A stretch of 63,276 nucleotides of DNA from a virus: the IMG/VR virus record IMGVR_UViG_3300032334_002666, positions 1-63,276 of that record. One strand, written 5' to 3'. Both the position numbers and the translations under genes were made by a program. Within the stretch, counting starts at the first letter, position 1. Each line of letters opens with the position of its first letter. Shown piece by piece: positions 2,259-48,834 of the stretch. Under the pieces are notes generated by a model. That model searched no databases, was not told the DNA's origin, and saw only the letters and a program-made list of their open reading frames with translations.

Positions 2259-4208
2259 ATGAGTTTTGAAGCATATTTAAGAAACTGGCTTAGTCTCACT
2301 GAATCAATCGTAAATGAGACTACTGAAGAGAAGGAGGATAAGAAATCATCTGAATTTGAAGATATCCTTAATATTATTGAGTCAGGAATAGGCGGAGAAA
2401 CCTCAGATAAAACGGCTAGAACTACATCATTCGAATCAATCGAACAGGTATTACAAAAAGTAGACATACTTACTCTAGAAAAAATAAAGGATAATCCACA
2501 ATTACAAAAGGTGTTGCTAGCAATGGTTGCGCCTGGAAAAGTTGAGTGGATGGGTGAATACTTGACTAAATCTAAGAAAAATTTAAACGCTCTATCATCC
2601 GATAAGAAGAAGACAGATCCTTCTCTTAATTTTGAAGGGTATAAAAGGTTTACTTTACGTGAGGCTGATGTTAAGAGTCGAATCTATAAGATGCACTTGA
2701 TATTTAAGTACGCATCTGATCTTCCTGAATTAGACAAAGAGACAAATCTCTTATTAGCACTAAAACAATTAGATGCTTCCTTAATTACTTCAACTGAGGC
2801 GAATCAGCCAACTATTAAGATCAATAAGATTGGAAGTATTGATAATACTGTCGAGTCAAATGAGTTTGGAGTAATTGATTCAAATGGGGAGTCTAGGATA
2901 ATGAAGAAGGAAGAACTTTCTGATCTTCTTGAGAAGAATCCTGAGATTGCAGAAAAGGCTAAAGCCTTGGCTAATGATTCCTATAAGAAAAAACTAGGTA
3001 AGCTCGTACAGAGAACGGAAGATACTATCAGAAAGGAAGTAGCTGATTCAATGAAAGAGACTGAGAGAGTAATTTCGGACTTGCCGAATGATGAAAAGAC
3101 AATGGAGAAACTACAAGTCGATTGGAAACCTCTAATCGATGCACTAGGTTACTCCAAATTCTTCAGCGGTCCAATTAAGGCAAAGGAGAAGGAGGTAACG
3201 AAGAACGAACGCCCGAGTCTAAGAAAAAAGAATAGGATTAAAGAAAAATTGATGAGCGCACTAAGTTCATCTCTACTTCCACCCATGGCAAATGGTGAGA
3301 TATCTGCTCCAGGCGGAGATTACTATAAATTATTTAAGAAATTAGAGGGACAGAACGCTGCATGGCTAGAAGCAGCAATTAAAGAAGTATTAGTAGATTC
3401 AGCTAGGATTGCACAATTTAATAACTCAGCAAGAACTGCTGAGAGCTCACTCGAAGAGAACCAGTTAGCATATCTACAAATATGTAGCTCATGGATAACT
3501 AAATATATTGAGAGTGAAGTTGATGGAGAGCTCTCTAAGCGAGATACAGATAATGCAATCGCTAAAATTAAGTCAATTACTCAACAAAAAGAGAAGGAGA
3601 TTAAAAACTATTATCTTTCAAAGGATTTCAATATGAAGAACTTTAAAGGTATTCAGCTCAAACCTGACCTGCGCCTTCCTCTCTATCAAAGGGTTAGATT
3701 AGCGGTTAGCGAGGCAGACAGAATAGCTGAGAGTCCACTAAAAAACCTGCTTAAGGGTCTTGGCCAAATAGCAGTTGGATTATTTTCAACTATACCTGAT
3801 AGAGGTGATATGGCACTAGCTAAAAAGAATGCTGATCAAAATAGAGCAATCTTCAATGGTCTGTATAGTATTATTAAAGGCGGAGTATATGGCGTAAGCA
3901 AACAAGGAGGCCGAGACTTTGAAAAAGGAGTAGAAAAAGTTACGAACAAGTTAAGACTTGATGCAGTTGGATTGACACCATATGAAAAAGGTGAAGGCCC
4001 TAAATTCTATAAGTCAGCCGAAAAGAAAACAAATGAAGATGCTGTGCCTGCATCAACATCACCAGGAGCCACTTTCCAAACACCTGCTACCCTACCTTCT
4101 AATAATATGGATACATTTGCACTTGCTGGTCCAGGTAAAAAGATCAAACCGAAGAAAATCGTAAAGAAGGTTTCTAATTTTAGCGATTTTCTGAAAAGTA
4201 AGGACTAA
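2259..4208 (+). CDS. Large helical virion-associated protein with capsid-targeting-like N-terminus
   Basis: 649 residues, strongly charged and mostly predicted helical, with long Lys/Glu stretches at about 60-330 and a Pro/Thr-rich then Lys-rich C-terminus. The N-terminus MSFEAYLRNWLSLTES fits the aromatic-x-x-aromatic...E pattern shared by several proteins in this window and resembling the T4 capsid-targeting sequence. It has its own late promoter and precedes baseplate genes. An internal head protein or an inner structural component is plausible; I recognise no enzymatic motif. Confidence 0.7.
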   Translation: MSFEAYLRNWLSLTESIVNETTEEKEDKKSSEFEDILNIIESGIGGETSDKTARTTSFESIEQVLQKVDILTLEKIKDNPQLQKVLLAMVAPGKVEWMGEYLTKSKKNLNALSSDKKKTDPSLNFEGYKRFTLREADVKSRIYKMHLIFKYASDLPELDKETNLLLALKQLDASLITSTEANQPTIKINKIGSIDNTVESNEFGVIDSNGESRIMKKEELSDLLEKNPEIAEKAKALANDSYKKKLGKLVQRTEDTIRKEVADSMKETERVISDLPNDEKTMEKLQVDWKPLIDALGYSKFFSGPIKAKEKEVTKNERPSLRKKNRIKEKLMSALSSSLLPPMANGEISAPGGDYYKLFKKLEGQNAAWLEAAIKEVLVDSARIAQFNNSARTAESSLEENQLAYLQICSSWITKYIESEVDGELSKRDTDNAIAKIKSITQQKEKEIKNYYLSKDFNMKNFKGIQLKPDLRLPLYQRVRLAVSEADRIAESPLKNLLKGLGQIAVGLFSTIPDRGDMALAKKNADQNRAIFNGLYSIIKGGVYGVSKQGGRDFEKGVEKVTNKLRLDAVGLTPYEKGEGPKFYKSAEKKTNEDAVPASTSPGATFQTPATLPSNNMDTFALAGPGKKIKPKKIVKKVSNFSDFLKSKD

Positions 4209-4228
4209 TCCTAAACTTTTTAAAGCCT

Positions 4229-4253: not shown

Positions 4254-6137
4254 ATGGATATCCTTAGTGCAGCAGTAGGTAATGGCGGAGTATCCGATAA
4301 TATTTTAAATTTATCGTCAGTTCAATCTCTTGGACAGTCGACTGAAGTTACTGGTGGAAAAACTGCGCAGACCGGTGAAGTTAAAGGAGATGGGTCAAAG
4401 ACAATTAAGATAATTGGTACAGAATCAATATTTAATCCATTCTATATTTTTAGATACTCTGAATTTGGTGCAGGAACAACTGCAAATACTTCTGGAGACT
4501 ATGATCTAAAGAGACATAACCTAAGTTATGAGGGTTCAAATGCTCTACTCGGTAGAGTACAAGAAGCTGCTGAAAAATTAAAGCGTCAGCAGGCAGTAGT
4601 TGTACAAAACCCAACTGCTATTGCAATTAAGACATGGGCAGATCAGCAGGCAACATTAGGTTCAAATCATAAGGGCCCTTTATATCCATATCCATATTCC
4701 CTAACTGATTTTACTCACTGTAAATATTATGGACTTGTTCCAAATAATAGGCTACTTACACTTAGGAGATATCCAGTACCAGTAGAAGATAACTTACAAG
4801 TACATCAAGACAAGTTACCGTTGGTTCCGATTGCGCAAGCTGTTACTTGGTGGGGAGGAGATACTAGCAATACACTAGATGGAATCTTAGGTATGACCTT
4901 TGGTTTTAAATGGAAAGCATATCCTAAAGAGGGAGAAGAAATACAGGATGTTCAAGGTAATGAACTTATTTTAGAAGATGCGCTGGATGCTGCTGGAATA
5001 ACAAATCCTACTGCTCGACAGGCATTAATTGCTTCTTTTGCAAATATGAATGATCAAAATCCATTTGCAGTATCAGGATATGATAAAGTATTACAGGATA
5101 ATTCTGTGAAACAACAAGAATCTGGTGCATACGCTAATCGTATACTCGGACCAATTAATGTTATTACTGAGACGAAGATAAGAGATAGAGGATTTAGTTT
5201 TGAACAAAAAATAGAGCTTGTTTTTGAATATAAATTAAGAGCGATTGGAACAGTTAATCCTAAAGTAGCAATGCTTGATTTACTAAGTAATTTTCTATCT
5301 TTGACATATAATAGAGCTTCTTTTTGGGGAGGAGGATATCGTTATTTTCAAAGAACTGGTGCTCTTCTTCCTGGATTTAATACTGATAATATGGAAAAAG
5401 GAGATTATGCATCAGCGACCAAAGATATTACTTCGATGTTGACTCAAATGATTGCTGCAGGTGGTGATGATCTTAAGGGATTTATTAATGGCGTTTCAAA
5501 TGATGCTAAGAATGCATCTAGTTTTACTGAAGGGTTTAAAAAGATTGCAGGAGATATTGCAGGAAGTAAGGTCGGACAAAATCTTATTGCAAGTAGAATC
5601 GGTAAACTTCATCAGGCACCATTAATAATGAGAGCCTTGGCAGACGGTCGTGCAGTTGGTGAATGGCACTTAACTGTCGGTAATCCAATGGATCCAATCG
5701 CGGTAATAGGTAATTTATGTATGGATTCTACAACTATTTCATTTGGAGAAGAACTCGGAGCACATGATTTTCCAATTAATGTAAAATTTAAAGTTTCATT
5801 AAGTCACGGAAGACCTAGAGCAAAACAGGATATTGAATCAATGTTCAATCATGGTGGAGGAGATCTTTCATTTACTGCTCTGCAGCCTCCAGCAAGTGCA
5901 CAAAATTCATATGGTGAATATAATAGTAGAAGAATTGCAGATACTACCGGTTCAGTATCAGCTAGTTTTAATTCAGCAACAACTACTGCTGATACTGCGG
6001 TCGGTGACAATGGACTTACTTCTGGCCAAAATTTAGCTAATTATTTTAGACCGGCAGTAGAAAGAAAATACGGTGCAGGGTTTGGAAAATCTGGAATATT
6101 ACCAGATTACTTTACAAAATTATATACAAAAGATTAA
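4254..6137 (+). CDS. Large baseplate/tail-tube-initiator-like structural protein
   Basis: 627 residues, Gly/Asn/Ala-rich, typical of virion proteins. The central part (about 300-370) includes FSFEQKIELVFEYKLR. The C-terminal part (about 450-530) contains a tube-like stretch with VGNPMDPIAVIGNLCM and FPINVKFKVSLSHGRPR, which recalls the end of T4 gp48/gp54-type tube-baseplate proteins. It is followed after 5 nt by the gp53-like gene and then the hub and spike genes, so a baseplate location is likely. Assignment to gp48 or gp54 is inference from context and local resemblance only. Confidence 0.6.
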   Translation: MDILSAAVGNGGVSDNILNLSSVQSLGQSTEVTGGKTAQTGEVKGDGSKTIKIIGTESIFNPFYIFRYSEFGAGTTANTSGDYDLKRHNLSYEGSNALLGRVQEAAEKLKRQQAVVVQNPTAIAIKTWADQQATLGSNHKGPLYPYPYSLTDFTHCKYYGLVPNNRLLTLRRYPVPVEDNLQVHQDKLPLVPIAQAVTWWGGDTSNTLDGILGMTFGFKWKAYPKEGEEIQDVQGNELILEDALDAAGITNPTARQALIASFANMNDQNPFAVSGYDKVLQDNSVKQQESGAYANRILGPINVITETKIRDRGFSFEQKIELVFEYKLRAIGTVNPKVAMLDLLSNFLSLTYNRASFWGGGYRYFQRTGALLPGFNTDNMEKGDYASATKDITSMLTQMIAAGGDDLKGFINGVSNDAKNASSFTEGFKKIAGDIAGSKVGQNLIASRIGKLHQAPLIMRALADGRAVGEWHLTVGNPMDPIAVIGNLCMDSTTISFGEELGAHDFPINVKFKVSLSHGRPRAKQDIESMFNHGGGDLSFTALQPPASAQNSYGEYNSRRIADTTGSVSASFNSATTTADTAVGDNGLTSGQNLANYFRPAVERKYGAGFGKSGILPDYFTKLYTKD

Positions 6138-11730: not shown

Positions 11731-12741
11731 ATGGATCACTATGCAAACTTAGGAGTTTCTAAAACGGCGACTCATGAAGAAATTAAAAAAGCTTATCGAA
11801 AGCTTGCAGTAAAATATCATCCAGATAAGACAGATGGTGATAAAGATCTAGAGGAACTTTTTAAAAAGATCTCTGACTCGTATACTATATTAGGTGATGA
11901 GAAGAAGAGGGAAGAATACGATAAGAAGACATCAAATCCCTGGAGTTCAAGTGGATTTGGTGAGACTTCAAATGGATTTGGATTTGATGAATTTGTTAGA
12001 AATTTTTCAGATTCAGACTTTAGACGAAGGTCGAATGATCGGGCTAGAAAAACGCAAGGTCGGCCTCACCCAACTCCACCAAGTACAGATCATCTTAATA
12101 TCTATGTGCATGATAAATTAGAATTAAAGGATGCAATGTTAGGAAAAAAGATTGAATTAAGTTTTACCAGAGAAAAGATAAACTATACTGGTAAATCAGG
12201 TAGTGTGTTGACTTTTGATAAGATCAAAGAGGAAAGGGATATTATAATTACGATCGATCTTAGGAAAAAGTATATTATCATTAAACAGGATGGAGATGCA
12301 CATACTGTTTCAGCAAGAGTGGCAAAGCTCGGTAATGAAGAGGTAGTTAGTCAATTAAATATGTGGGGAGATCTTGAACAGGTTCCGCTAATTGGAGATC
12401 TACATGTTACATTAGAACTAATTATTCCAGAAAACGTAAAAATTGAAGGCACTAGAATAATTCAGGTAATTGATATCCCATTGAGTAGTGTAATATTCAG
12501 TGAAGGAAAAACAAAGATTGAAACAATCGTTAATAAGAAATACGAGGTGGATTTTAATAGTCCTCGATCTGCATCAAACTTAAAATTCTCAATACCAAAT
12601 GAAGGAATATGCAATGAACAGGGCAAGCTCGGAGAATATCTGGTCAAGTTTAACGTAGTATTACCTCAAATCGACGACATATCAGAAGAAGATTTCTTAA
12701 AATTAAAATCGGTATTGTCAGAATACGAAAATAAAACTTAA
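11731..12741 (+). CDS. DnaJ-like co-chaperone (type B J-protein)
   Basis: 336 residues. Residues 1-68 form a complete J-domain with the invariant HPD ([11 protein letters not shown]) that stimulates Hsp70 ATPase. A Gly/Phe/Ser-rich linker (about 70-105) follows, then a beta-rich C-terminal substrate-binding part with the usual late [12 protein letters not shown] segment. The Cys-rich zinc domain of DnaJ is missing, so it is CbpA-like. No phage Hsp70 is seen in the window, so it probably recruits host DnaK. It lies directly before the prohead protease-scaffold and capsid genes. Confidence 0.85.
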
Positions 12742-12760
12742 AAAGTTTCAAATAGCTCTT

Positions 12761-12776
12761 AATAAATAATAAAAAA
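12761..12776 (+). promoter_or_regulatory. Late-promoter-like motif
   Basis: AATAAATAATAAAAAA lies 27 nt upstream of the TTG start at 12788. That spacing equals the others in the family and supports the TTG as the real start. It probably drives both the protease-scaffold and the capsid gene, since no such motif lies directly before the capsid gene. Confidence 0.7.
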
Positions 12777-12787
12777 TATTTTGGGCT

Positions 12788-14761
12788 TTGACAAATCAAA
12801 ATTTAGCACAAATTAACTACGGCGACTGGGTACTAGTTGTTGAAAATGTTGGTGAGAAACTTCGAGTAAGTGAATCATCAGCGTCTGGTGCAGTACTTGA
12901 AGGAGTATGTGCAGTATTCGGTCAAATGAATAATAACCGACGAGTCTATGAAAAATCAGAATACCTTCCACACCTTTCCTATCTTCAAGATAAGATCTCA
13001 AAAAGACAATTAGTTGGAACAGTTGATCACCCTCAGCATTTTGAACCAAAATTAAGCGAAGCTTCACATATTATCGAATCTCTTACTTATGATGGCGGTG
13101 ACAAAGTATACATTAAAGTTCGACTATTAGAAAACACTCCTCATGGTAAATTAGCTAAAGCGTTGCTTGATGGAGGAGTTCAACTATCAGTTTCTTCAAG
13201 AGCAGCTGGTCAAGTTAGCGAGAGCGGTATGGTAAAATTACAGAGGATCTTTACTTATGACTTAGTAGGTGAACCTGGTTTTACTGAAGCAGTTTTACGT
13301 AAGACTGTTAGTGAATCCCTAAAGAGTGACTTTTCAATGATTACTGAGAGCTACAATACAATGAAGGAAAATTCATTTATTCAAAAATCTGGATTAATGG
13401 ATATTTCAGAAAGTTTAAACTTCGCAGATAATTTTAAAGTTTATAAGATAAATAAATTAGAAAATAGTTCAGGAATAAAATTCCAAGGGACTCTACAAGA
13501 ACAAAAAAATAATAACACGATGGCCGAGTTTGTAACAAAAGAACAAATGGATAAATACTCAGAAGTTCTTAAAACACAATTCAATGGGATTAAAAAAGAA
13601 CTTAAGAATCACAAGTCTGTTTTAGAGTCTGCTCAATCAAACGGATCTAGTAATTCTGAGCTAGTTGGATTTGTTAATTATTTAGCAGAATCATTAGAGG
13701 GAGTTATTAATTTTACTGATTATCTTTCTCATAAATTAAATGAATCAGTTAAATATACAGAACATGTATCTGAAACAGTTAATAATTCAATTGAATACTC
13801 TTCTTATTTAGGAGAAAAATTGAATCAGTCAGTTAATTATCAAGACTATATTTCAGAAAAATTAAACGAGTCTATTAATTATACTGAATACGTTAAAGAA
13901 AACGTAAACAACTCTATTAAATATCAAAATTATTTGGCTGAAGAGCTTGATAAAGGATTACAATATGTTGAATACGTTGCTGAAGGAGCTAATCGTTCAA
14001 TTGAATTTGGAGAATATCTTTCAGAAAACATTAACTTAAATCGTGATTATTCTCAGTATCTAGCTGAAACAGTCGGTAAAACAATCGGTTACGCTGAATA
14101 TCTTGCTGAATCTTTAGGAGAAGGAGCAACATTAGGTAAAAGAAATATCTTAGGAGGAGTTTCTAAATTAGATGAATCTAACTCTATTGATAACTTAATT
14201 TCTAAAGTTGACCAAGTAATTACTGAGGTAAATGATAAATCTTCTAAAGCAGTTCTTGAAAGTAAATATCCTTTCTTAAAGGTTATGAACGAAGCTAACA
14301 AGAAAAGTTTCTTTGGATTAGAGTCAAACACTAAACAAGCAATTGTTGAAGCACTTAATGGTTCAGTATGGTTTAACGAAAACGATATCGTTGGAATCAT
14401 GGAAGCAGTAGTAAATCACAAAGAGCAAAATATCCCTACATATATCCGATTCATGCCAGCAGAATACAAACCTACTTGGAATGAAATGAATGAGAGTGAA
14501 AAAAGTAAAGTTCATGCTAAAGCACAACTTTATAATGTAAACACTCCATACCAAGTTAAATCATTCTGGGATGATATTGATATGAGAGGTATCAATGAAA
14601 GAATTGAAATTCAAAAACATAATACTAAAAAAATGCAACAACTCAACGAAAGCCAAAGTACAGAAGGCCTAGTACCTGTTGAACAGGTTGTTGAGATGCA
14701 GAGAGGTTACTCTCAAGGTTACCTAGAGACTATGCTGAGAAGCGCAAACTCTAGATTGTAA
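12788..14761 (+). CDS. Prohead protease-scaffold fusion (gp21-like N-terminus)
   Basis: 657 residues from a TTG start. Residues 30-170 resemble T4 gp21: MNNNRRVYEKS (gp21: VNRNKRLYPK), the catalytic His in VDHP (H81), and the Ser region SVSSRAAG (S136/S137; gp21: GVSSRGLG). In T4 this serine protease matures the prohead. Residues about 245-657 do not belong to gp21: a coiled region, eleven exact 14-residue repeats (294-447), and a helical C-terminus, which fit a scaffold or core protein like gp22. An internal ATG at 13520 (MAEFVTKEQMD) preceded by AAAAAAATAATAACACG could start a separate scaffold product. Confidence 0.8.
   Translation: MTNQNLAQINYGDWVLVVENVGEKLRVSESSASGAVLEGVCAVFGQMNNNRRVYEKSEYLPHLSYLQDKISKRQLVGTVDHPQHFEPKLSEASHIIESLTYDGGDKVYIKVRLLENTPHGKLAKALLDGGVQLSVSSRAAGQVSESGMVKLQRIFTYDLVGEPGFTEAVLRKTVSESLKSDFSMITESYNTMKENSFIQKSGLMDISESLNFADNFKVYKINKLENSSGIKFQGTLQEQKNNNTMAEFVTKEQMDKYSEVLKTQFNGIKKELKNHKSVLESAQSNGSSNSELVGFVNYLAESLEGVINFTDYLSHKLNESVKYTEHVSETVNNSIEYSSYLGEKLNQSVNYQDYISEKLNESINYTEYVKENVNNSIKYQNYLAEELDKGLQYVEYVAEGANRSIEFGEYLSENINLNRDYSQYLAETVGKTIGYAEYLAESLGEGATLGKRNILGGVSKLDESNSIDNLISKVDQVITEVNDKSSKAVLESKYPFLKVMNEANKKSFFGLESNTKQAIVEALNGSVWFNENDIVGIMEAVVNHKEQNIPTYIRFMPAEYKPTWNEMNESEKSKVHAKAQLYNVNTPYQVKSFWDDIDMRGINERIEIQKHNTKKMQQLNESQSTEGLVPVEQVVEMQRGYSQGYLETMLRSANSRL
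13667..14128 (+). repeat. Eleven tandem 14-residue (42-nt) repeats in the scaffold part
   Basis: Residues 294-447 are eleven consecutive 14-residue units without any indel; consensus (N/E)Yx-(E/D)YL-x-E-x-LN-x-SI. Examples are NYQDYISEKLNESI, NYTEYVKENVNNSI and GYAEYLAESLGEGA. Fourteen residues is two heptads, with aromatic residues at positions 2 and 5 and hydrophobics at 6, 10 and 14, so a regular helical rod or coiled coil is expected. Several units contain LAE or VAE followed by Ser, Thr or Gly, similar to gp21-type cleavage sites. Confidence 0.9.
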
Positions 14762-14787: not shown

Positions 14788-16428
14788 ATGGCACGTACTA
14801 AAATTTTTAAGCGTTCAAGCGATGCTCGCTTAGCGAACACATGGCAGCCGATTTTAGAAGGTTACGGTGCTGATGTTGCAAAGACTCCATGGTTAGCTGA
14901 GTACGCTCACAACCACGCTATCTTTGATAACACTACACCAATCTTTGAAAACACTGCTCCAGGTGTATTCTTCCAAACTCCAGGTTCTCTTGGTGGTTTT
15001 ATGGGAAATCCATCAGCTCCAACATCAGCAATGACTCCGTTCACTGCAGGTGCTAAGAATTCTTTCTCAGCTGATGCTAACGGTTCTGGTGATAAATTTC
15101 CATCACTTTTACCAGTTGCTATTCAAGTAGCAGCAAAAACTATTGGTTTTGATCTAGTTCCAGTTATCCCTATGGATTCTCCAGTTGGATTCCTTCCTTA
15201 CTTGGATTATTTATATGCAGGTGGTAGAACTGGTACAGGCGAGTTTGATCCTTACTTAGTTAAAATTGAAGGTGTTACTTCAGCATCATTCAACCCAACA
15301 CCAGCTCCAGGTGATACTGCAACAGTTTCTGGATCAGGTGCAGGAGATTTTGTTCTTCACTTCGTAGGATACTCTCGTGTAGACGGTCAATTGATTCTTA
15401 AAGTAGTATCTGATACAGGTACAAATACTTTATCCACTTCACTTACAGGTAACACTATTACTATTAATGGTGATACTTCTGGTAACGTAACTGGAGTTTC
15501 TCTAGTTTCTGCATTAGAAAACCATATTTCTGGTTTTACTTCAGTATCTGATGCTGATTATGCAACTACTCCATTCAATGGTTCTTACCTTCCTTCTACA
15601 GGAAACGTACCAGGATCAATGAGAAGAGAAGAAGGTGAAAACTCTAAATTCCGTCAAATGGGATTAAGAATGTTCACTAAATTTGTTGAAGCTGAAACTG
15701 ATCAAGTATCAATTTCTGCAACAGTTGAGCAAATCCAAGACTTGAACAGAGTTTGGAATTATGATGTTATCTCTATGTTGGAAAACGTAGCAGTTAATGA
15801 CTTAGCTCAATCAATCAACAAAAGATTAGTTGATAAAGTATTACAACTTGCTGATGTTCACTCTACAGAAGTTAACTTAGTTGAAGGTACAGGTATTACT
15901 ACTCTTGACCTGACTGCTGGTGGATTTGATAACACTTCTACATTACAAAGAAGATTGGTTACTAAAGTTCTTGAAATGGCAAACTTGATTTACCATAGAG
16001 GACGTTTTGGAGCTGGTACTTTCTTAGTAACTAACGGACGTGTTGCTTCTGCAATGGCTGATGTTGCTGGTTACTCAATCGCACAAGTTCCAACTGATAT
16101 GGGTGGAGTTGCAGGTAACCTTTACCCAGCTGGTAAAGTTTACGGAGTACAAGTTTACGTTGATCCTAACATGGCTTGGGGAGACTCAAGAATCATGATT
16201 GGACGTAAAGGTGCTGACGAAGAACCGGGTGTTAAATTCATGCCATACATCATGGCTGAATCTCTTCAGACTATCTCTGAAGGTACATTCTCTCCAAAAA
16301 TCGGTATGAAATCAAGATACGCGATTACTGAAGCAGGATGGCATCCTGAAACTCAATACATTAGTATTGATGTTACTGGTGCTGCTCTTGGAGTTCTTAC
16401 AGGTTCTACTGCGTTAGTAAGTATCTAA
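14788..16428 (+). CDS. Major capsid protein (gp23-like)
   Basis: 546 residues. The N-terminus LANTWQPILEGYG aligns with T4 gp23 LLNKWKPLLEGEG. The HK97-like core is recognisable from NSKFRQMGLRMFTKFVEAET through QIQDLNRVWNYDVISMLENV to the C-terminal GMKSRYAITEAGW (gp23: GFKTRYGIGINPF). Residues about 150-260 form an inserted beta-rich, Thr/Gly/Ser-rich domain. A possible protease site, ILE-G, lies at residues 22-25, but T4 cleaves further downstream. The gene follows the protease-scaffold gene by 26 nt and ends in a strong terminator. The A-rich leader has no Shine-Dalgarno sequence although this should be the most abundant phage protein. Confidence 0.93.
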   Translation: MARTKIFKRSSDARLANTWQPILEGYGADVAKTPWLAEYAHNHAIFDNTTPIFENTAPGVFFQTPGSLGGFMGNPSAPTSAMTPFTAGAKNSFSADANGSGDKFPSLLPVAIQVAAKTIGFDLVPVIPMDSPVGFLPYLDYLYAGGRTGTGEFDPYLVKIEGVTSASFNPTPAPGDTATVSGSGAGDFVLHFVGYSRVDGQLILKVVSDTGTNTLSTSLTGNTITINGDTSGNVTGVSLVSALENHISGFTSVSDADYATTPFNGSYLPSTGNVPGSMRREEGENSKFRQMGLRMFTKFVEAETDQVSISATVEQIQDLNRVWNYDVISMLENVAVNDLAQSINKRLVDKVLQLADVHSTEVNLVEGTGITTLDLTAGGFDNTSTLQRRLVTKVLEMANLIYHRGRFGAGTFLVTNGRVASAMADVAGYSIAQVPTDMGGVAGNLYPAGKVYGVQVYVDPNMAWGDSRIMIGRKGADEEPGVKFMPYIMAESLQTISEGTFSPKIGMKSRYAITEAGWHPETQYISIDVTGAALGVLTGSTALVSI

Positions 16429-16452: not shown

Positions 16453-16480
16453 AGAGGATTCTTTCGAATCCTCTTTTTTT
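16453..16480 (+). terminator. Intrinsic terminator after the capsid gene
   Basis: A 9-bp perfect stem (AGAGGATTC / GAATCCTCT) with a TTTC loop is followed by a run of seven T. It ends capsid transcription just before the next late promoter. Confidence 0.9.
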
Positions 16481-16489
16481 GTTTATAGA

Positions 16490-16506
16490 GATAAATAATA
16501 AAAAAC
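16490..16506 (+). promoter_or_regulatory. Late-promoter-like motif
   Basis: GATAAATAATAAAAAAC lies 28 nt upstream of the ATG at 16518 and 10 nt after the capsid terminator, giving the Dps-like gene independent late expression. Confidence 0.75.
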
Positions 16507-16517
16507 TTATAGAAATT

Positions 16518-16886
16518 ATGACAAGTTTAATGTCAACATTCTTAGGAATCCAATCTCAATTTAAAGTGTTTCATTGGCAGACACAATCTTATGCTAAACA
16601 TCAAGCATATGGTGGAATCTATGATACTCTTAGCGACTTGTCTGACGAGTTTATGGAAACATATATGGGTAAATATGGTAGAGTTGCTCTAGAAGGAGAA
16701 ACTGATGCTATCCTATTAGGAAATATTGGAGAAGTTAACATAGAGGAATTCTTGGACACTATTGTAGAATTCTTATTATCTTTTAATCATAAACTAGATG
16801 GTAACAAGGACAGTGATCTCCTAAACATCAGAGATGAGATGTTAGGTGCTATTAATAAACTTAAATATTTACTAACTTTAAAATGA
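16518..16886 (+). CDS. Dps/ferritin-like four-helix protein
   Basis: 122 residues. The start is the ATG at 16518; a longer frame from TTG at 16479 would run through the promoter and is rejected. The segment QSQFKVFHWQTQSYAKHQAY followed by LSDLSDEFMETYMGKYGR has the spacing of helix 1-2 ligands in Dps/ferritin-like proteins (His, Asp, Glu). Dps binds iron and DNA in cells; the phage family is of unknown function. Expression from a late promoter suggests a virion or late role. Confidence 0.65.
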   Translation: MTSLMSTFLGIQSQFKVFHWQTQSYAKHQAYGGIYDTLSDLSDEFMETYMGKYGRVALEGETDAILLGNIGEVNIEEFLDTIVEFLLSFNHKLDGNKDSDLLNIRDEMLGAINKLKYLLTLK

Positions 16887-20565: not shown

Positions 20566-20682
20566 TTAGGCGAATACAAAGGTTTTAAGCATCCAGGCAA
20601 CGGTGACGATTACTGAGCCCATTATTAACATCCAAATAAAGACGAATTTTGGTCTTCTTTCAAATTCATTGTAATACTTCAT
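20566..20682 (-). CDS. Single-span membrane microprotein
   Basis: 38 residues from ATG to TAA: MKYYNEFERRPK, then one hydrophobic span of about 22 residues (FVFIWMLIMGSVIVTVAWML). The ATG overlaps the stop codon of the topoisomerase large-subunit gene by one base (TAATG), a strong coupling sign. The role is unknown; it would insert in the host inner membrane. Confidence 0.65.
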   Translation of the reverse strand: MKYYNEFERRPKFVFIWMLIMGSVIVTVAWMLKTFVFA

Positions 20683-22550
20683 TAATTTTTATTATTTCCA
20701 AGAATCCTGTCCTTTCTAGGTTGAGAATCCTTACCGAACCACGACTCAAGGGACTCTTTATAGTCTTTATCGTTCTTTATTTGAACTAGGTTTGGATTTT
20801 TGATTATTTCTTCGTATTCAGCGTCCTCTAGAGCACCAAGTCCCTTTTTATATTCAATATCCCAAGCGGAAGCCTTATTCTTCTTTGTCCACTTGTCAAA
20901 TTCTTCATTTGTGTAAAAATTAAGCGAGTCTTTGCCTTTTTTAGCGACTACTAGTGGAGTCATTACTTTATATACTCGACCTTGATCAAAAAGTTCGGGC
21001 CAAAAGCGATTAAAGAAGTTAATTAAGGTTGCAGCGATGTGGCTACCGTCTGGATCGGCATCAGTGTAGATATAGATGCGACCATACCGTAATCCTTTAG
21101 GTTCTTCGCCTAGTTTTAGTCCAAGTGAGGCCATTAGCTGCACGGCTTCATCATTTTTAGCAATTTCAGAAGGTTTCATCTCACTAACGTTGATAAATTT
21201 ACCTTTTAGTGGAAAAGCACCAATTATTTGAGTGTCTCTAAACTTACGAACTGCTGAAACTGCTGAAAGACCTTCATATATGCCTAAGATACACACTCCG
21301 CGATCACCTTTACGCTGTGCATCGATCAATTTAGGTATTTTGGTCTTATCCAAGTCTTTATTTAGCTTTCTAAGCTCTGCTCGCTCTTGAGCAAGTGCTT
21401 TTTTCTCAATCCAATCTAGAACTGACTGTATTATTTCTGACTTAAAGACTAGTTTTGCTAACCTATCTGTTACCTCATGCTTAGTACCGAAATCTTTGAC
21501 TTCAGTGATGAGTTTTTCCTTAGTTTGTGAGCTAAAGAATGAGTTTACAATAGTCGAATCAATAAAGACATAGAGGTGGTTTCTAATATCACTCGGCTTA
21601 ACATCAACTCTGTGCTTTTTCTTAATCATTTCTCGCAATTGTGCGATTAGCTGATTAGTGATATATTCAACGTGAGTTCCGCCGTCTTTAGTGTGTACTG
21701 AATTAACAAAACTTACGTTTTGAAAGCCATTTTCTGACTTTGCAAAGCCTACTTTCCAATCTTTTGTCTCGTCAAAGAAGTATTCATCAGCATATAACTG
21801 AATGTATTCTTCAAAACTTTTGAATTTGAGTAAATAGTCCTTTTTTACGCCGTCTTTTATCTTAGTTAGCTTTAAGGTAAGCTTATTGTTACATGCAACT
21901 AGGTCCAAACAACGTTTAAATAGGATTTGAAAGGACTTTTCATCGATTAATCGCATTTTAAATCTCTCAAGATCTGGAAAAAAGGAAATTTCAGTAAATC
22001 CTCTCTTCGCTGGAGTTATTTTTGCAGTAGTTCGCTTACCCATATTATCAGTAAAGGTTTGGTCGAACCTATTTTTACCATCACAGGTAGATATTGAGAA
22101 CTTTTTACTAAAGATATTAGTTAGTGTTGATCCTACACCATTGGTACCAGCAACAGTTCTCTGTTCAGTGTCATCAAAATTAGATCCAGCTTTTAGATTT
22201 GAGAAAATCATTTCAGGAATCCACTCTTTATGGACTGGATGCTTCTCTACTGGAATTCCACCGTTATCCCAGATTGAAATCTCAGTAGTATCTAGATTAA
22301 GAGTCACTCGGATCTCATTTAATTTAGGATTTCGACGATGTTCATCGACTGAATTGGAAACAATTTCATCAAATAATTTAATAAATCCTGGATTATAGTT
22401 AACCTCCTCAATGGTTACCTTTTCTCCATCGTAGAGATATTGATCTCCAGTATGGGTGACAATTGAGCCAACATACATCGATGGACGAAGTAGGACGTGT
22501 TCGACGTCAGTTAATTTTTGATACTGAGTTTCTATTGATTTCCTAGCCAT
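20682..22550 (-). CDS. 39: DNA topoisomerase II large subunit (gp39/gp60-like, GyrB homologue)
   Basis: 622 residues. It has the GHKL ATPase motifs (IVSNSVDEHRR, WDNGGIPVEKH, NGVGSTLTNIFS) followed by a transducer and a TOPRIM domain (CILGIYEGLSAVSAV, YTDADPDGSHIAATLINFF). In T4 these parts are split between genes 39 and 60; here they form one polypeptide. It overlaps the helicase stop codon by one base. Confidence 0.93.
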   Translation of the reverse strand: MARKSIETQYQKLTDVEHVLLRPSMYVGSIVTHTGDQYLYDGEKVTIEEVNYNPGFIKLFDEIVSNSVDEHRRNPKLNEIRVTLNLDTTEISIWDNGGIPVEKHPVHKEWIPEMIFSNLKAGSNFDDTEQRTVAGTNGVGSTLTNIFSKKFSISTCDGKNRFDQTFTDNMGKRTTAKITPAKRGFTEISFFPDLERFKMRLIDEKSFQILFKRCLDLVACNNKLTLKLTKIKDGVKKDYLLKFKSFEEYIQLYADEYFFDETKDWKVGFAKSENGFQNVSFVNSVHTKDGGTHVEYITNQLIAQLREMIKKKHRVDVKPSDIRNHLYVFIDSTIVNSFFSSQTKEKLITEVKDFGTKHEVTDRLAKLVFKSEIIQSVLDWIEKKALAQERAELRKLNKDLDKTKIPKLIDAQRKGDRGVCILGIYEGLSAVSAVRKFRDTQIIGAFPLKGKFINVSEMKPSEIAKNDEAVQLMASLGLKLGEEPKGLRYGRIYIYTDADPDGSHIAATLINFFNRFWPELFDQGRVYKVMTPLVVAKKGKDSLNFYTNEEFDKWTKKNKASAWDIEYKKGLGALEDAEYEEIIKNPNLVQIKNDKDYKESLESWFGKDSQPRKDRILGNNKN

Positions 22551-45645: not shown

Positions 45646-48600
45646 ATGGCTGAACCAAGGATAAACTTAAATAATTACAAGTCTAGTGGTGTTTACACAG
45701 TTGAAATCGATGCAAGTGAGAACGTAGTTTTACCTCTTACAACTGGTCGTTTGATCGTAGGATCAAGTAGAGTTGGACCCTTTAATACTGTTGTATTGAT
45801 TAATGACATTAGAACTTTACGAGCAGTATTTGGAGAAATCGATCCAAAATTAGAAAAAGCAGGAAGTTACTTCCATAGAACAATTGAGGTTGCTCTAAGA
45901 GAAGGACCAGTATTTGCAATGAATGTATTGCCTTTAGATACTTATATTGCTATTCCTGCATCAAATTTGGACCAGGCTGCATTCACTACATTCAATACTG
46001 AATCTGCTGCAAATAATGATGGTACTAACCAGTATCCAATCGTTGAATTCTTTAATCGTCAGAGATTATGGTTTGCAGACGCAGATAAAGTAAATAAATC
46101 TAAAAACTTAGCATTAGGTGATGATTATATCACTACTCCTGGAGGATTTGGTATAACTACTTCTGCATCAAACAAGGTTCTTTCATTTGCAAACTTAGGA
46201 CAATCTAATATGACTGTATGGGTAAGAAAAGCAAATGTTTCTGGCTTTGATGTTACTGCTACCGAATGGTATGCAAGTGTTGGTGGAGGATCAGTTGAAT
46301 TTCCATCGTTTCTTCACCCAGATGATTTTATCTCTGACTATTTTGTTGAGGTAATCGTAGTTAATGGAGATTGGACAAATTACTTAAAACTTTCAAATGA
46401 CCCGATCTATAAATCCTACTTTGATGCCTCTGGTTTAAAGAGTGCTAATTCAGCAAACTTTTTTGCATTAAGAGAAATCAGAGTAATTAATAGAACAATC
46501 GGATGTTTAATCCCTGATTTTAGAGATCAGAGTGGAGTAACAGTTTCAATTGACAGACTGGTAAACAGAGCATTCCCAACAACTGGATTAATTTGTGCAC
46601 TAGACACTGAAAAATTAGACTTAATTGATCTTACGAATGATACTTTTCTTGATACTGATGTATATACTCATAGAGTTGATATAATTGGTCAAGGTATTGA
46701 TGAACTAGCATACTACGCTGATAATGGAGGTTTTGATAACGTCTATATTGGAGGAATAACACCGACCGGCTTTACTACAAACGGTTTAGGTACAGTATAT
46801 TCTACTGCAACTGGTGTTGCAACCACAAGTGCTGGTGGCGGTACTGGCTTAACGGTAGATATTACTGCTACTCTTGGTGTAATTACTAGTATTGTTGTAA
46901 ATAATCCTGGAACTGGATATGAAGTAGGTGATACTATCACTATCGTTGGAGGTACCATTCCTGAGATTTTAACAGTTACTGCAGTTACATACGCTAACCC
47001 AGCAGTTAATGCAACTCCATTAATTGATACAATAAGTTATTCTAGACCAGTTGATGCTGAATTAGTATTTGAAATGGATAGTACTATAGTAGAAGCTACC
47101 TTTTTATTAGGTACCGGTGTAGCAGTTGGTGATCAATACCTTATCACTGCAGCAACAGACTATATTGTTGCAATGGAAGGAAGTAAGTTATATGAAGCAT
47201 ATACAAAAGGTTTCCTAAAAACTGGAGATACTAGTTCAGACGGTATTAACCCGACTCGTTATTTAAAAGTGGTTGATAATTTAACGGTTCTTACTTTTAA
47301 ATATATCAAAATTGAAGTATACTCAGGAATATCATTGACTTCACAAGTTAATGCTAATGCGTATAACGTATCTGGTTCAGATTACTTTAAAGTTGCCCTA
47401 GCTGACGGTGACGATTTTAGTCACACCTTTGACTTGACGGATACTGCAATATTTGCAAGTTATTCAATTGCTCAGCCTAATGTGTTGACTCTTGAATTAG
47501 ATGGAGCAATCAGTGTACCAAATAAAGCACTAGTTAATAAATATATTAAGCCAAATAGTTATATCAAAGCTGCAACAACTGATGGTAGATCAAGATTATT
47601 AAAAATAGTATCAGTATTTACACCAGATCCTTTACTTGCTCCAGATACTATTAAAGTTACAACAATGGCGCCTTCAGTAGACGAAGTAACTGGATTAGAT
47701 ACTACTGGATTAGAGATTCAAGTGTATATTGGAATTCCTAATTTCGTGACTAACTTAAAAGGTCAAAAATTAGCAGCATTCAAATTAAGAAATGATGTTT
47801 TACCTGATGGTACAGCGGATCGATTAGAAGGAACTGGCGGAATCTTAGATTATCTTTTCACAGATACTTTAATCCCACAAGCACTTTCAAATGGAGAATT
47901 AATTGATTTTAGATATGTAGTCGATTCTTATTCAGGTACAATATCTGCTTCTTCTAAATATCAACTTGCTAAATTAGCTGCAGTAAATGGTCAAGCAATG
48001 GCACTTTTAAATGCTCCATCAATGCAACAATTTGAGAAATCAGTTGACCCTAGCTTTATTGATACTACTAATAAATTGGTATCTACTGAGTTAATCGCAG
48101 CAGGTGGTAATACTACACTGAATCCAAGCTTCCTTTATAAGTTTGCTGAAGAGGATGTTAAAGGAGTTCCATTATCTTCTTATGCATCATATCACTTCCC
48201 TAACCTAATCGTAAGAAGCGGAAGCAAGAATATCTCAGTTCCTCAAGCAGGATATATTTCTAACTTATACGTTAGAAAATTCAAAAATGGTACTCCATTC
48301 TTGATTGTAGCTGGTGGAAAACGTGGAGCTCTTAATGATCCAGAAATAGTCGGATTAGAATATGATCTTACTGATGATGATAGAGATTACTTAGAGCCAG
48401 CTGGATTTAACTTAACAGTTAAGCGTAGAGGATTTGGAATTATCTTGTTCTCTAATAACACTGCATACCAAAGAATTAATTCAGCTCTTAATAATGCTCA
48501 CGTTAGAGATAACTTATCTACTATTGAGAGAGACCTTGAGAAAATCTTATTTAACTTCTTGTTTGATTTCAATGATGAGATTACAAGATTAAGAGTAAGA

Positions 48601-48834
48601 ACAATTGTTGAAAACTACTTAAACGCTGTAGTTAATGCAAAAGGAGTTTCTACATATGAAGTAATATTTGATAGTTCAAATAATACAAATGAAGTAATTT
48701 CTGCAAATGCAGCAATTATAGATATTCGAGTAGATTTCCCAAGAGGAATTCAAAAATTCATCAACCGAATTACTATTACAAGAGTAGGAGGATCGTTGAG
48801 TTCAGATGCTACTGGATTTATTCCAAGTTTCTAA
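45646..48834 (+). CDS. 18: Tail sheath protein (gp18-like), enlarged
   Basis: 1062 residues against 659 in T4. The N-terminal part has GVYTVEIDASENVVLPLTTG and FGEIDPKLEKAGSYFHRTI. The conserved C-terminal sheath domain (about 880-1055) includes NLTVKRRGFGIILFSNNTA, INSALNNAHVRDNLSTIERD, LFNFLFDFND and ANAAIIDIRVDFPRGIQKF. The middle contains extra beta-rich insertions, among them a module VDITATLGVITSIVVNNPGT with GYEVGDTITI near residue 400, also known from phage fibres. Insertions would decorate the outside of the sheath. It has its own late promoter and a strong terminator. Confidence 0.92.
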   Translation: MAEPRINLNNYKSSGVYTVEIDASENVVLPLTTGRLIVGSSRVGPFNTVVLINDIRTLRAVFGEIDPKLEKAGSYFHRTIEVALREGPVFAMNVLPLDTYIAIPASNLDQAAFTTFNTESAANNDGTNQYPIVEFFNRQRLWFADADKVNKSKNLALGDDYITTPGGFGITTSASNKVLSFANLGQSNMTVWVRKANVSGFDVTATEWYASVGGGSVEFPSFLHPDDFISDYFVEVIVVNGDWTNYLKLSNDPIYKSYFDASGLKSANSANFFALREIRVINRTIGCLIPDFRDQSGVTVSIDRLVNRAFPTTGLICALDTEKLDLIDLTNDTFLDTDVYTHRVDIIGQGIDELAYYADNGGFDNVYIGGITPTGFTTNGLGTVYSTATGVATTSAGGGTGLTVDITATLGVITSIVVNNPGTGYEVGDTITIVGGTIPEILTVTAVTYANPAVNATPLIDTISYSRPVDAELVFEMDSTIVEATFLLGTGVAVGDQYLITAATDYIVAMEGSKLYEAYTKGFLKTGDTSSDGINPTRYLKVVDNLTVLTFKYIKIEVYSGISLTSQVNANAYNVSGSDYFKVALADGDDFSHTFDLTDTAIFASYSIAQPNVLTLELDGAISVPNKALVNKYIKPNSYIKAATTDGRSRLLKIVSVFTPDPLLAPDTIKVTTMAPSVDEVTGLDTTGLEIQVYIGIPNFVTNLKGQKLAAFKLRNDVLPDGTADRLEGTGGILDYLFTDTLIPQALSNGELIDFRYVVDSYSGTISASSKYQLAKLAAVNGQAMALLNAPSMQQFEKSVDPSFIDTTNKLVSTELIAAGGNTTLNPSFLYKFAEEDVKGVPLSSYASYHFPNLIVRSGSKNISVPQAGYISNLYVRKFKNGTPFLIVAGGKRGALNDPEIVGLEYDLTDDDRDYLEPAGFNLTVKRRGFGIILFSNNTAYQRINSALNNAHVRDNLSTIERDLEKILFNFLFDFNDEITRLRVRTIVENYLNAVVNAKGVSTYEVIFDSSNNTNEVISANAAIIDIRVDFPRGIQKFINRITITRVGGSLSSDATGFIPSF

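Follow-up and report, generated by a model that had tools for sequence, protein, structure and literature searches.

The window, i.e. the whole stretch of 63,276 nucleotides of viral DNA that was analysed, carries on its plus strand an open reading frame with a TTG start and a TAA stop which encodes a prohead protease fused to a scaffold-like part, followed by the gene for a gp23-like major capsid protein (Table 1). The computed mass of the fused product, 74.3 kDa, is slightly above the approximately 73 kDa given in an earlier reading made from the letters alone (the sequence-only reading), whose main observation, that a protease is here fused to a scaffold in place of the separate genes 21 and 22 of T4, agrees with the layout of that phage. 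The scaffold part is located between the protease domain and the capsid gene, and an [IL]xE site marks the end of the capsid propeptide in nearly all relatives. The TTG start is plausible, since the TAATAAATAATAAAAAA element is conserved in relatives and change 5' of the TTG is strongly suppressed: in a simple, home-made test of synonymous change that uses correlated pairs, this region gave the lowest ratio of synonymous-type change (0.04).

Directly 5' of the fused gene lies a gene for a DnaJ-like chaperone with DnaJ and DnaJ_C domains (11731-12741), and directly 3' of the capsid gene one with a match to a starvation-inducible regulator family (phrog_858; 16479-16886). Elsewhere, the window encodes a phage-borne DNA gyrase B-like topoisomerase subunit (20682-22550, minus strand) and a very large tail-sheath-like protein of 1062 residues (45646-48834), with sheath matches confined to its C-terminal third.

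Table 1. Features of the protease-scaffold locus in the window.
Feature	Position	Strand	Evidence or remark
Promoter-like/leader non-coding element TAATAAATAATAAAAAA, 5' of the gene	12760..12787	+	kept across relatives
Fused prohead protease-scaffold gene	12788..14761	+	657 aa; full-length fused relatives
Protease domain, residues ~33-170, gp21/S77 fold, triad H81/S136/D158	12884..13297	+	Pfam, HMM, AF2, Foldseek
Candidate autocleavage site [L/V/I]xE-S (V174-S-E-S177) at protease end	13307..13318	+	conservation
GATAAATAAA, candidate promoter within the gene, 73 nt 5' of ATG 13520	13447..13456	+	match to element before other genes
A-rich leader of internal start	13495..13519	+	start context, conservation, synonymous change
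Internal start codon ATG (Met245)	13520..13522	+	M in 126/126 + 64/64 relatives
Predicted free scaffold, 413 aa, 47.2 kDa	13520..14761	+	without known domain family
Eleven 14-residue repeats ([YF]xxY[LIV]xE...), long predicted helix	13661..14122	+	most with L/I-x-E motif
C-terminal helical domain with FW motif, putative shell-binding end	14258..14617	+	pLDDT ~80
gp23-like major capsid protein, conserved [IL]xE propeptide site (PIFE/N)	14788..16428	+	Pfam Gp23, E 1.4e-36

Distribution of the fused gene

Full-length fused relatives were detected by tblastn in huge-phage records of 735, 642, 636, 634 and 462 kb, four of which match genomes of the Mahaphage paper (PMC7162821). The first three scans of IMG/VR yielded 163 fused open frames of at least 500 residues, 127 of them unique, and a later scan provided 80 further loci (L180-L259). 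The latter were fetched afterwards and form a held-out clade, about 40% identical to the protein of the 462 kb phage. With the distant phage PTm1 left out, 126 and 64, i.e. about 190, unique relatives were checked for the internal methionine described below; such counts share descent and do not represent independent events.

Every intact relative found is fused, those of the 634-735 kb Mahaphages included, and fused proteins are also present in Lak-B2 (code 15), PTm1, SP-15 and LIS04. Protease and scaffold are separate genes in T4, syn9, SH-Ab 15599 and PAU; the occurrence of two distinct genes in relatives, which had been named at the outset as evidence against the proposal, is thereby true only of distant phages (T4, syn9, PAU). 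No fission of the gene at the internal methionine was found in close relatives, and two loci lacking an ORF call turned out to be intact fusions. At locus L187, an in-frame TAA within the repeats (3530-3532) splits the scaffold, representing either a natural variant or a sequencing error. A scan based on PTm1 retrieved PTm1 itself as the only match. Judging from these sequences, a branch of large T4-like phages commonly carries the fusion. The fusion itself is already in the databases, since PTm1 is annotated accordingly and a UniProt entry 93% identical to the window protein and also of 657 residues exists (A0A6J5PWK8, Peptidase U9, uncultured Caudovirales phage); this entry is named as a protease only, and its row gives no internal product.

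The protease domain

By profile, catalytic triad and predicted fold, the protease part is a member of the S77/gp21 family. Residues 33-146 match Pfam Peptidase_S77 with 36.6 bits (cut-off 27), and a match to PHROG_207 ('head maturation protease') spans residues 29-399. An HMM profile built from 40 relatives matched one solved structure, that of T4 gp21 (5jbl, E 1.6e-6). The same structure was the top Foldseek hit in the PDB (E 6e-8, TMt ~0.7) for the protease domain of the AlphaFold2 model, in which residues 36-170 are well predicted (pLDDT ~85); herpesvirus proteases ranked after it, with E values of about 2e-3 and weaker. Of the residues singled out by the sequence-only reading for a gp21-like protease (H81 and S136/S137), H81 and S136 are indeed the aligned counterparts of H85 and S140 in T4 gp21. 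Both are invariant in an alignment with the T4, syn9, PAU and PTm1 proteases, as is D158, the third catalytic residue, which that reading did not mention.

The T4 protease gp21 cleaves after L/I-X-E (PMC9026906). At the candidate autocleavage site of the window protein, the glutamate is conserved in 126/126 relatives, the following serine in 125/126, and leucine, valine or isoleucine at P3 in 124/126. The glutamate (E176) is invariant in the alignment with T4 gp21 too, where its counterpart lies within ITES.

A repetitive scaffold-like part

The approximately 400 residues after the protease are helical and repetitive. The predicted structure features a disordered linker (221-250), a helix (251-282) and a long helix (290-445, low confidence). 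Autocorrelation of the protein sequence peaks at lags 14 and 28, above the 99% shuffle limit; no tandem repeats of note were found at the DNA level, the 14-residue repeat being detectable in the protein only. The scaffold contains 16 L/IxE motifs, compared to 6.6 in shuffled sequences, mostly with one motif per repeat, and relatives are alike in this respect. The number of repeats was also considered as a possible measure of genome size; 14 is the usual number in Mahaphages and 8-16 the range in the window group, with no clear relation in a comparison in which most relatives are fragments.

The C-terminal helical domain (residues 490-610) is better predicted than the long helix, and its FW motif is common to the window protein, PTm1 and the Lak fused proteins. 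In Prevotella phage Lak-B2 (code 15; L008, 3869-5626), the protease is likewise fused, here to an extended acidic stretch of low complexity, with the same C-terminal FW domain and no 14-residue repeat. When the scaffold part was used by itself as a tblastn query, matches were confined to the six huge-phage records and to Tenacibaculum phages, and comparison with four gp22 sequences by hhalign gave a probability of homology to T4 gp22 of 0.5%. Position and motif content suggest that the scaffold works like gp22, with a negative result for homology.

A conserved, probable internal start

The sequence-only reading had proposed that the in-frame ATG at 13520, preceded by an A-rich leader, could serve as an internal start, from which the product would be MAEFVTKEQMDK. 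This proposal is strongly supported by a methionine invariant in 190 relatives, a start-like context and suppressed synonymous change. A counterpart of Met245 is present in all of the 126 unique relatives other than PTm1, and in 64 of 64 members of the held-out clade (61/61 unique sequences plus L185, L195 and L187, which were read by eye). Among the 15 methionine columns of the gene, that of Met245 alone is conserved at 100%, the next best reaching 97.6%, and among 42 well-occupied linker columns it is one of three that are fully invariant, the two others being located at the protease end. The residues beside it vary (TMA, NMN, HMT, KMD, TMG), and its spacing to the V-T motif that follows it changes. 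In the AF2 model, Met245 lies in the disordered linker, directly before the helix at 251-282.

The leader acaagaacaaaaaaataataacacg contains 70% A in its last 20 nt, compared to means of 54% for the 63 real starts of the window and 35% for internal ATGs; of the latter, 1 of 339 (0.3%) has as high an A content. A start-context matrix built from the 63 real ATG starts (AUC 0.96 against internal ATGs) ranks ATG 13520 higher than 52% of real starts and 98.8% of internal ATGs (all but 4 of 339), so that the feature stands well above chance by both measures. In three groups of relatives, the homologous ATG was the best-scoring one within the gene in 42/60, 49/66 and 46/61 cases. Adenines at -3, -6, -12 and -13 raise initiation in Flavobacterium johnsoniae, with A enriched at -14 to -11 (PMC6847099), and the largest relatives have predicted Bacteroidetes hosts (PMC7162821). 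The window leader fits this pattern, with A at -3, -6 and -11 to -15; across relatives, A is found in 99% at -11 and -14, and in 75% at -3 (vs 37% for other methionine codons). Moreover, predicted RNA structure is weaker around ATG 13520 than elsewhere in the gene.

An A-run of this kind could also act as a frameshift or slippage site, with a -1 shift ending the protease early and re-initiation coupled at ATG 13520, and the window leader does contain A_AAA_AAT with an immediate TAA in the -1 frame. Such coupling is disfavoured and in our view most improbable, as the run is not conserved: interruptions occur in many relatives (CAAATAATTC, GGAAAATAAT and the Mahaphage leaders) that keep the methionine.

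Applied along the gene, the same correlated-pair test of synonymous change gave for the held-out clade a lowest ratio of 0.25, located 5 codons before the internal ATG, with nearly all of the lowest windows surrounding the ATG. In the window clade, the leader shows a dip (ratio 0.22, 1.8 percentile), and a second internal dip, the lowest inside the coding part (ratio 0.12), falls on the codons AAG ATA AAT AAx, which constitute the element that precedes at least 10 genes of the window phage by about 24-29 nt. The sign of constraint is not uniform among clades, since in Mahaphages the codons beside the ATG are not unusually constrained and the dip lies 8-20 codons upstream. There, suppressed synonymous change at codons -20 to -8 (e.g. 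L003, ~4523-4562) covers AACTTTAGGATATATGAAATGTCCGATGAG, which may represent a variant promoter or a signal of another kind. Suppression in the held-out and window clades supports a translation start, and the dips of the window clade perhaps reflect a promoter as well.

If only the full-length fusion were translated, free scaffold would arise solely by self-cleavage in the linker (e.g. at LQE238 or ISE208), and the conserved methionine would be a feature of the protein. Linker L/IxE motifs are present in 107/126 relatives, compared to 61 expected, the [LIV]xE-S site where the protease ends is conserved, and HK97-like and P2-like phages manage with a scaffold linked to another function (PMC8508860). 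Nevertheless, we consider this improbable, as it leaves unexplained both an invariant methionine in a disordered, variable linker and a start-like leader with suppressed synonymous change, and forces one protease per scaffold. T4 needs about 580 copies of gp22 and about 55-100 of gp21 (PMC9958956, PMC5694885), and a T4-like ratio, which is beyond a fusion alone, counts for an internal start. A fusion can exist without one, as indicated by PTm1, which is fused and lacks the boundary methionine, and by the fused SP-15 and LIS04 genes, in which no convincing Shine-Dalgarno sequence was found before the nearest or internal methionine. For the window gene and the about 190 related sequences, those of the largest known phages among them, it is very probable that the conserved internal start signal gives rise to additional free scaffold. 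The fusion, the protease family and fold, the internal methionine with its start-like context, the repeats and the motifs are all read directly from sequence.

Promoter-like elements

At least 10 gene starts of the window are preceded, at a distance of about 24-29 nt, by the sequence [GA]ATAAATA (sites at 2231, 4229, 12761, 25189, 26427, 28690, 30383, 33703, 45617 and 48887), and the TAATAAATAATAAAAAA element is also found at 4228, before the gene at 4254. The [GA]ATAAATA element resembles the T4 late promoter TATAAATA and is probably a promoter of the window phage. In the Mahaphage clade (loci L092-L171, L001 and L003-L005), a strong promoter-like motif, AATATATA, precedes 85/399 genes, compared to 0.2 expected from coding sequence.

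Free scaffold might be produced mainly from its own transcript, by way of a promoter inside the protease gene, as for herpes UL26.5. The candidate, GATAAATAAA at 13447, matches sequences preceding many genes, its codons ATA AAT are invariant in 26/26 members of the window clade, and no ATG, GTG or TTG intervenes in the window between it and ATG 13520. Another clade has GATATATAGA at the same place, which is like its own upstream motif and ranks first within the gene in 16/20 cases. However, the spacing of 73 nt differs from the 24-29 nt seen at other genes, the FxxY protein motif is itself conserved at the GATAAATAAA site, and the held-out clade has no clear element and Mahaphages a weak one. 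As a general feature across clades, an internal promoter was rejected, support being found in two clades only. We regard it as a possible but somewhat unlikely main source of free scaffold, weaker than internal initiation.

A model for prohead assembly

Taken together, these observations make it highly likely that one gene specifies two products, a protease-scaffold fusion and an excess of free scaffold from the conserved internal start. The gene would then be a single-gene counterpart of the T4 21-22 cassette. Translation from the 5' start would yield a small amount of the 74 kDa protein, whose scaffold tail would carry the protease into the growing prohead, and ATG 13520, in its unstructured A-rich leader, would give rise in the same frame to free scaffold of 47 kDa in excess, the ribosomes initiating there independently of Shine-Dalgarno pairing. 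Fusion and free scaffold would copolymerise under the gp23-like shell via the repeat helix and the shared C-terminus. Upon closure of the shell, the protease would be released at [LIV]xE sites, reduce the core to short peptides by cutting at the L/I-x-E sites of the 14-residue repeats, and also trim the capsid protein. Here, we infer the synthesis of both proteins, their ratio, their copolymerisation and the order of cleavage.

An internal start would explain how an excess of scaffold is obtained for T4-type heads despite fusion of protease and scaffold, and would add an unannotated protein, predicted from sequence, to hundreds of huge-phage genomes. In the largest phages, it would also provide a candidate for the scaffold; the word protease is absent from the 2020 paper that described them (PMC7162821), and as of 2017 a gp22 counterpart had been confirmed in no phiKZ-type giant phage. 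A more far-reaching proposal, tentative and rather unlikely to hold in full, is that the largest known phages possess a nested protease/scaffold gene with an internal start and, in some clades at least, an internal promoter, and that their scaffold, a ladder of 14-residue cut sites, forms a self-shredding core that recreates or preserves the herpes UL26/UL26.5 arrangement. If true, disassembly of the core would be programmed, each 14-residue unit presenting a cut site to the attached protease, and the ladder provides a simple and testable idea for the removal of a very large core.

Comparison with known systems

The window locus and T4 share the gene order 21-22-23, the family, fold and triad of the protease, and the presence of L/I-x-E motifs both in the scaffold and in the propeptide of the capsid protein. 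Moreover, a second start in the same frame exists in T4 gp21 as well, although this is located inside the protease and not at the scaffold boundary as in the window. T4 also differs in that genes 21 and 22 are two genes about 30 nt apart, and the sequence of gp22 is not demonstrably homologous to the window scaffold. In Tenacibaculum phage PTm1, the 'prohead core scaffolding protein and protease' is likewise fused, located 5' of the capsid gene and equipped with the FW domain, but it lacks the boundary methionine and has other repeats. Listeria phage LIS04 (L172, 3417-5096) and Bacillus phage SP-15 (L173, 3402-5108) also have a peptidase fused to a coiled-coil part 5' of the capsid gene, annotated in SP-15 as a hypothetical protein; neither the 14-residue repeats nor a Shine-Dalgarno-led internal start was seen in them.

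The C protease of phage lambda belongs to a different family from the window protease. The parallel with lambda C/Nu3 drawn in the sequence-only reading nevertheless stands at the sequence level, as a probable in-frame internal start with a conserved methionine at the scaffold boundary, although the window leader is A-rich and not of the Shine-Dalgarno type. In lambda, the scaffold gene overlaps the protease gene in the same frame (Shaw and Murialdo 1980, as cited in PMC8508860).

The herpesvirus genes UL26/UL26.5 (UL80/UL80.5 in HCMV) also encode a protein in which a scaffold follows an N-terminal protease belonging to the same fold superfamily, together with a shorter, 3' co-terminal scaffold protein, which is in excess in herpesviruses (VP21 being about 10% of scaffold) and predicted to be so here. 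Self-cleavage between protease and scaffold is known in herpesviruses and represented here by candidate sites, and the products are similar in size (635 and 329 residues vs 657 and 413). Differences lie in the fold of the proteases, more distant from the window domain than that of gp21, in their Ser-His-His triad, and in the internal promoter from which the short product is made, for which GATAAATAAA is a candidate only. A nested gene as proposed here would tie T4-like phages to the protease/scaffold logic of both lambda and the herpesviruses, and bears on whether this logic is ancestral or convergent: the UL26/UL26.5 arrangement would have been recreated in T4-type phages, or kept there from a common ancestor. 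UL26/UL26.5 is at least as close an analogue of the window gene as lambda C/Nu3.
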